Position numbers and translations under genes: made by a program. Under the pieces are notes generated by a model. The model made no database searches. It was not told the DNA's origin and saw only the letters and a program-made list of their open reading frames with translations. Below, one piece after another: positions 60,770 to 62,396 of a stretch of 64,000 bases of DNA; the stretch's first letter is position 1; the number at the start of each line of letters is the position of its first letter. The DNA lies in assembly GCF_004364935.1 (NCBI RefSeq), contig NZ_SOBT01000008.1:1243534-1307533 (forward strand), in the 5' to 3' direction. Source of the DNA: Panacagrimonas perspica. GTDB taxonomy: Bacteria > Pseudomonadota > Gammaproteobacteria > Nevskiales > Nevskiaceae.

Positions 60770-61916
60770 GCGCCGTCGGCCCATTCCCACTCTGCTGGTC
60801 GTCAGCTTGCTGCTGCATGCTCTGATCGCCTGGCGCCTGCTGCCCGCTCTCGATGGCGGTGCCTGGGTCGTCGCGATCGGAAGTGTGGCTTTCGGGCTGT
60901 CCGCGGTCCTCGTGCCGGCGCCCTTGCTGGTCCGCCTTGCGGGCCTGCCGCGAAAGGCGGGCGACGTGCTCGCCTGGGCCGGCTATCTGGCGATGGGCCT
61001 GTTCTCGACGTTGTTCGTCGCCACCCTGCTGCGCGAACTGGTGCTGGCGGCCGTGCTGATCGGAAGTGTCGTTGCGTCGGCGCCGGTCGACTTCGACGTC
61101 TGGCGCACGATGACAGCACGCTTCGTCGTCGCACTGGCCGCCACCGTCAGCCTGCTCGGCCTGTTCAACGCGCGTCGCACGGCGCGCGTCGTGCGCATCG
61201 ACATCCCGCTCGCCGATCTTCCGTCGGCGCTGCAGGGCTTCACGATCGCGCAACTCTCCGACGTGCACGTGGGGCCGACGATCAAGCGTGGTTTTCTCGA
61301 AGCGATCGTGCGACGCGTCAACGCGCTGGATGCCGACGCCGTGGCCATCACCGGCGATCTGGTGGACGGCACGGTGGCGCGGCTGCGCGATCATGTCGCT
61401 CCGCTGGCCGATCTTCGTTCGCGTCACGGCACGTTCGCGGTGACCGGCAATCACGAGCACTACCACGGTGCGGAGGCCTGGGTGACCGAGTGGCGCCGTC
61501 TGGGACTGCAGGTGCTCGACGATCGCAACGTGGTGCTCGAGCACGCCGGCGCCCGCTTGCTGATCGGCGGTGTCACCGACTATTCGATGCATCGCGGCGA
61601 AGATCATCGACGCGCCGCGGTCCAGGCTGCGCAATCCGCGAATGCGGTCTCCGCCAAGGTGCTGCTCGCACACCAGCCGCGTTCCGCCGACGCCGCGTCG
61701 GCGGCGGGTTTCGATCTGCAGCTGTCCGGTCACACGCACGGTGGGCAGTTCTGGCCATGGAACCTGTTCGTGCCGCTGCAACAGCCGTTCGTGGCGGGAC
61801 GGCATCGGCTGAAGCAACTCTGGGTCTATGTCAGTCGCGGGACCGGCTACTGGGGACCGCCGTTGCGATTCGGCGCGCCGTCCGAGATCACCTTCATCCG
61901 CCTGCTTGCCGCCTGA
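60768..61916 (+). CDS. Membrane-anchored metallophosphoesterase (YaeI-like)
   Basis: A 382-residue protein. Four hydrophobic segments in the first ~145 residues anchor it. The calcineurin-like domain carries all metal motifs: SDVHVGP (about 165), GDLVDG (about 198), GNHEHY (about 227), AHQPRS near 300, and GHTHGGQFWPWN near 324. YaeI-like members act on lipid-linked or nucleotide phosphates. The ATG at 60768 is chosen from the membrane-segment start. It ends 28 bp before an SOS box. Confidence 0.92.
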   Translation: MRRRPIPTLLVVSLLLHALIAWRLLPALDGGAWVVAIGSVAFGLSAVLVPAPLLVRLAGLPRKAGDVLAWAGYLAMGLFSTLFVATLLRELVLAAVLIGSVVASAPVDFDVWRTMTARFVVALAATVSLLGLFNARRTARVVRIDIPLADLPSALQGFTIAQLSDVHVGPTIKRGFLEAIVRRVNALDADAVAITGDLVDGTVARLRDHVAPLADLRSRHGTFAVTGNHEHYHGAEAWVTEWRRLGLQVLDDRNVVLEHAGARLLIGGVTDYSMHRGEDHRRAAVQAAQSANAVSAKVLLAHQPRSADAASAAGFDLQLSGHTHGGQFWPWNLFVPLQQPFVAGRHRLKQLWVYVSRGTGYWGPPLRFGAPSEITFIRLLAA

Positions 61917-61944
61917 AGGCTCGCCAACGCCGCTTTCTCTCTGG

Positions 61945-61964
61945 TACTGTATATCCATACAGTG
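61945..61964 (+). promoter_or_regulatory. LexA (SOS) box
   Basis: TACTGTATATCCATACAGTG matches the E. coli consensus CTGT-N8-ACAG exactly in the half-sites, and 17 of 20 positions overall. It ends 18 bp before the ATG of the small membrane-protein gene at 61983, which it should repress until DNA damage. Confidence 0.85.
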
Positions 61965-61982
61965 TCCGTCTGGAGCAGCGAA

Positions 61983-62396
61983 ATGACCTCGACAACCGCA
62001 GCAACAAGCCGATCCTTCATCCGGTATGGCATCGCCACCGCCTTGATCCTGGCCGCCGCCGCTTGGCCGGCGCATGCCGATGCCTTCCTGGTGGGCGCCG
62101 GCATTCTGCTGGGCTTGTCGATGGCGGTCCGGCTGAGTTCGCGCGACCGCAGACGATCGATGACGATGCAGGATTGCCCGCTCGATGCGCTGCCGCCCCA
62201 CTTCGCGACCGACAGCACGGCCTCGACTTCTGCATACCGCCATCACGCGTGGCGCAACGAGCTCACCGGCGAGCTGCTCGAACGATCACGACGGCGACTC
62301 ACGTCCTCCGCCGGTCGCAGGCACGGCGCACGCCCTTCGGCTCCACGGACCTCGATGACGTATGTCCGCATCGGAGCGGCCGACGGCATCCGCTGA
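61983..62396 (+). CDS. Small SOS-controlled membrane protein (inferred), unknown function
   Basis: A 137-residue protein starting at the ATG 61983 (CTGGAG site 7-8 nt upstream). A hydrophobic segment (about 15-31, ending AWPAHADA like a signal-peptide cleavage site) and a second (34-50) are followed by a basic Ser/Arg/Thr-rich cytoplasmic or periplasmic region of ~85 residues. No family is recognised. A near-consensus LexA box directly upstream implies induction by DNA damage. Small SOS membrane proteins in other bacteria (SidA, YneA) block division, which makes that a testable role here, though no similarity is visible. Confidence 0.7.
   Translation: MTSTTAATSRSFIRYGIATALILAAAAWPAHADAFLVGAGILLGLSMAVRLSSRDRRRSMTMQDCPLDALPPHFATDSTASTSAYRHHAWRNELTGELLERSRRRLTSSAGRRHGARPSAPRTSMTYVRIGAADGIR

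Follow-up and report, generated by a model that had tools for sequence, protein, structure and literature searches.

Small membrane proteins that are induced in the SOS response and inhibit cell division form a real and widespread class, whose members are often lineage-specific and share little sequence (PMC13396833, PMC6851548), and the Gram-positive division inhibitors that have been compared (PMC6851548) have only one membrane segment, their C-terminus being extracellular. The SOS control, small size, membrane anchoring and lineage-specific sequences of YneA, SosA, ChiZ, DivS and SidA resemble the predicted features of an open reading frame (ORF) from Panacagrimonas perspica, which differs from them, however, by two hydrophobic segments instead of one, a predicted cytoplasmic tail and no LysM domain. 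Such a domain is found in YneA and ChiZ and is absent from SosA and DivS, and the ORF gave no match to Pfam LysM. TisB is another SOS-induced small membrane protein (PMC11575346). The TisB-type SOS toxins have LexA control and a hydrophobic segment in common with the predicted features of the ORF, but the latter is much longer (137 aa), carries a large hydrophilic tail and lies in a region where no antitoxin RNA family was matched in Rfam, so that the short peptide with an antisense antitoxin RNA, characteristic of the type, was not found. TisB and similar SOS-induced small membrane proteins act on the membrane, not on division. The cytosolic inhibitor SulA is preceded elsewhere by the same operator at a near-equal distance from the start codon (14-19 nt against 18 nt at the ORF); however, SulA gives strong model matches, while the ORF has hydrophobic segments and matches neither PF03846 nor TIGR00623; for lack of a match, a diverged SulA was rejected as its identity. 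Compared with the beta- and gammaproteobacterial LexA operators (CTGT-N8-ACAG), the site in front of the ORF is identical in half-sites, spacing and flanks and itself no different, and what is new is the gene behind it.

The window, that is, the whole stretch of 64 kb analysed, was considered together with the complete 5.4-Mb genome, which was examined by pattern, family and protein searches. The 20-mer TACTGTATATCCATACAGTG, read on the plus strand at 61945-61964, has both half-sites (CTGT...ACAG) perfect and is the single occurrence of CTGT-N8-ACAG in the window, and the ATG (61983) begins 18 nt past its end, in agreement with the initial annotation of a near-consensus SOS box at this distance from the start. 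The expected number of sites in the window for the box 16-mer, with up to 3 mismatches allowed, is 0.02. By a weight matrix derived from the lexA, recA and radical-SAM boxes of the same family, 32.9 bits are reached by the site and 2.5 bits by the runner-up in the window. With up to 3 mismatches, ACTGTATATNNATACAGT occurs at 7 places in the genome, 6 of which are intact near-consensus boxes, including the present one, and the reversed control pattern scanned genome-wide gave 0 matches. A literature search for the SOS box sequence returned no match, and a strict scan for a sigma-70 consensus promoter found none.

The genome encodes one LexA protein above the family cut-off, carrying PF01726 and PF00717, and its gene has its own box of the same kind, TACTGTATATACGTACAGTG, 16 nt 5' of the ATG. 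This box is identical to TACTGTATATCCATACAGTG at 18 of the 20 bases, and the boxes of recA and of a radical-SAM gene (359 aa, PF04055) at 17 of the 20 each; the site in front of the ORF thus combines CTGT-N8-ACAG and an AT-rich centre with likeness to the lexA and recA boxes of its own genome. The 16-mer core CTGTATATCCATACAG is letter-for-letter that of the lexA box in both sister species compared (G001, G002) and also stands 5' of the radical-SAM gene in one of them (G001). The 20-mer is, on these sequence grounds, almost certainly a true LexA operator, and the regulatory half of the finding can be regarded as solid. As regards the control of the ORF, what was observed directly is the sequence of the operator and its agreement with genuine LexA boxes, and from these we infer binding and induction.

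Several further loci with such boxes were noted. The lexA gene heads a cluster reading as lexA-imuA-imuB-dnaE2 (L005:1-4404). In the family member G021, CTGTATATCCATACAG lies about 150 bp 5' of a gene whose reading is that of an SLC13-type transporter rather than of a repair gene (L032:1499-1518). Two more near-consensus boxes were seen in the P. perspica genome: TACTGTACACATTTACAGTA (L003:2808-2827; G000:C1:2446307-2446326) is directly 5' of an ORF of 165-175 aa, followed by an ORF of more than 1,000 aa that carries a P-loop-like GSGKT motif, with an HNH endonuclease gene (PF01844) divergent, which possibly represents an SOS-controlled defence locus, PADLOC giving a weak mads_8-type match only; TACTGTACGTTCATACAGTA (L002:3585-3604; G000:C1:761584-761603), with a second ACAGTG-type half-site upstream, is near a prophage-like region that contains a gene for a prohead protease (PF04586), and stands immediately 5' of a small uncharacterised ORF.

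When a collection covering about 85,000 species was searched, the exact TACTGTATATCCATACAGTG was present in 30 contigs, and by their titles all of them belong to beta- or gammaproteobacteria. The HMM-confirmed neighbours were SulA (n=4, with the start codon 14-19 nt away), ImuA (n=2), UmuD, a UdgX/TIGR03915 protein and an SRAP protein, and some of the contigs have no obvious SOS gene nearby. The 20-mer precedes sulA in Erwinia, Pantoea and Rosenbergiella, and its distance to the start is 19 nt in Erwinia sulA, 18 nt at the ORF and 16 nt at lexA of the same genome. At five Caballeronia and Burkholderia loci (L108, L117, L119, L120, L124), it stands 21-30 nt 5' of genes that read as fusions of TIGR03915 with a UdgX-type uracil-DNA-glycosylase, a reading HMM-tested for L108 only; since the same 20-mer precedes the gene in these genera, LexA control of this repair gene across both of them is suggested.

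The features of the locus are collected in Table 1. The upstream gene, encoding a calcineurin-like phosphoesterase on the plus strand, ends before the box, and the downstream neighbour, which by eye encodes a dihydroxy-acid dehydratase of the ilvD type, is oriented convergently; this leaves the ORF as the sole candidate for a protein target of the box. The gap between the flanking genes is 560 bp and would otherwise be empty. A GTG at 61962, within the box and in the same frame, is a poorer start than the ATG. The minus-strand ORF 61847-62218 was rejected as the real gene, since it overlaps both the box and the last part of the phosphoesterase gene, and its coding score is lower. No LexA box was found near the relatives of the flanking genes checked within the family, and the gene that follows the phosphoesterase gene in the sister species G001 is a different one.

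Table 1. Positions of the operator, the ORF and the predicted segments of its product in the 64-kb window.
Feature	Position	Strand	Basis
LexA (SOS) operator TACTGTATATCCATACAGTG	61945..61964	.	likeness to the lexA, recA and radical-SAM boxes
Shine-Dalgarno-like GGAG, 7 nt 5' of ATG	61972..61975	+	direct reading of the sequence
Putative orphan ORF of 137 aa, product probably a small inner-membrane protein	61983..62396 (including stop)	+	
First hydrophobic segment, signal-like, residues ~12-29, with an AHA-DA motif near its end	62016..62069	+	hydropathy
Second hydrophobic segment, residues ~34-52	62082..62138	+	hydropathy peak 1.83
Hydrophilic, net-basic tail, predicted cytoplasmic	62139..62393	+	charge, positive-inside rule (inference)

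The product begins with MTSTTAATSRSFIRYGIATALILAAAAWPAHADAFLVGAGILLGLSMAVRLSSRDRRR, in which the signal-like segment is followed by the second segment and then by the basic tail, an 85-residue hydrophilic stretch with a net charge of +7 from residue 55 onward; hydropathy and charge thus bear out the anatomy proposed in the initial annotation. Whether or not the first segment is cleaved as a signal, which it could be, the tail would probably be cytoplasmic by the positive-inside rule. A single-sequence AlphaFold model, of low confidence (pLDDT 59.7), places helices at residues 4-27 and 29-59.

The coding statistics of the ORF, obtained with a codon model for which 207 putative genes from the same genome served as the training set, are ambiguous. 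Its score corresponds to the 92nd percentile of false (shadow) ORFs, 8% of which reach it, and to the 5th percentile of genes, 5% of gene pieces scoring lower. Codons 1-55 score best, at about the 25th percentile of gene starts, and the tail is weakest. In shuffled DNA of the same composition, a plus-strand ORF as long appeared in 6.5% of cases. Translation of the ORF is considered somewhat more likely than not, and the protein half of the finding is much weaker than the LexA-box half.

Homologues of the 137-aa ORF were absent from the genus (3 genomes), the family (58), the order (85) and 369 sampled genomes of the class, as well as from the GTDB species collection (about 85,000 species, a search sensitive to close relatives only), plasmids, phages and IMG/VR. 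Neither Pfam, NCBIfam, PHROGs, PADLOC nor the PDB sequences gave a match, and the product belongs to no known family, as had been supposed from the first reading of the sequence. A likeness to ribosomal protein L32 (L015, E about 0.004 per genome), the matched frame of which reads as an rpmF gene, was rejected because it is at the level of other chance matches and the ORF has no Pfam L32 match. The weak matches L012-L014, L016, L017 and L038 were dismissed as shadow frames or unrelated proteins, and L020 of the same genome (53% over 32 residues) as sharing only the signal-like N-terminus with a repeat-rich exported protein.

The best explanation, favoured by a modest degree, is that the locus is a species-specific unit of a LexA-controlled, translated orphan small membrane protein, and the likelihoods attached to the alternatives below overlap with or compete against that of this reading. 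LexA would sit on the operator just 5' of the ribosome-binding site, and its RecA-triggered cleavage would free the operator and lead to induction upon damage. The 137-residue product would then be made and would enter the membrane by both hydrophobic segments, leaving the basic tail on the cytoplasmic side. As a single role, the most likely may be that of a damage-induced membrane effector slowing growth or division, in a genome that has no SulA above the cut-off. The small membrane protein is probably made from the ORF during DNA damage. Against this explanation stand the coding score, the frequency of equally long ORFs in the shuffles, the lack of homologues at every depth searched, the absence of a box beside the relatives of the flanking genes and the negative result of the strict sigma-70 scan.

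Another explanation, less likely but the strongest of the rivals, is that a true LexA site, which arose or was left behind through a rearrangement, stands before a non-functional nascent or decaying frame. It is consistent with the ambiguous coding score, lowest in the tail, with the orphan status, with the frequency of equally long ORFs in the shuffles and with the different gene downstream of the phosphoesterase in G001, whereas the correctly spaced ribosome-binding site, the score of the first 55 codons among gene starts and the otherwise empty intergenic gap argue against it.

That the ORF product is an SOS checkpoint protein blocking septation like SidA, YneA or SosA and replacing SulA, a narrower form of the reading as a LexA-controlled orphan membrane protein, appears unlikely, somewhat more so than the non-functional frame, and a role as a division inhibitor is accordingly put forward here as a tentative suggestion. 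The idea, which is that of the initial annotation, is an analogy, but a reasonable one because small SOS membrane proteins blocking late division are widespread with little shared sequence, and small lineage-specific membrane proteins often fill the division-block role (PMC13396833, PMC6851548). It gains a little from the genome having no SulA above the cut-off, and it accords with the use of the same 20-mer for sulA in the three genera named above. The one sub-threshold SulA match falls inside the gene that follows lexA and has the reading of imuA, which accords with the known relationship of ImuA and SulA (PMC9578287). However, the idea is weakened slightly by the predicted cytoplasmic position of the tail, which is unlike that in YneA, SosA and ChiZ, and the two hydrophobic segments together with such a tail contrast with the one segment and outside C-terminus of the described inhibitors (PMC6851548); the ORF is also without a homologue.

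A damage-induced membrane-active peptide, depolarising and dormancy-promoting in the manner of TisB, is quite improbable: the LexA box, the hydrophobic segments and the TisB precedent (PMC11575346) agree with it, but the ORF with its 85-residue hydrophilic tail is far longer than such peptides, and the Rfam search of the region revealed no antisense antitoxin RNA family. Least credible is that LexA controls a non-coding RNA, or a transcript running antisense into the dehydratase gene at its 3' end. The convergent orientation of that gene and the lack of a detected intrinsic terminator between it and the ORF would speak for this, but the ribosome-binding site is present, and the Rfam search (no match) and the folding test (no better than shuffles, z 0.9) give no support to an RNA gene, which was rejected as the identity of the locus.

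Returning to the LexA-controlled orphan membrane protein, the site can be described, as far as its sequence and comparisons go, as a well-supported species-specific member of the LexA regulon, behind which an orphan membrane protein is probably encoded. If the protein is not made, the locus would remain a clear-cut case of a species-specific LexA box and would illustrate the gain or loss of SOS regulon members. Should it be made and act on division, the locus would represent another independent solution of the SOS checkpoint, in an SOS system of the gammaproteobacterium type where SulA was not found, and an instance of LexA control over a very young gene. A more speculative and rather unlikely version of the latter is a lineage-specific SOS division inhibitor of new architecture, a membrane hairpin with a cytoplasmic basic tail, doing the job of SulA in P. 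perspica; if this were true, it would mean that SOS checkpoint proteins arise anew behind a LexA box.
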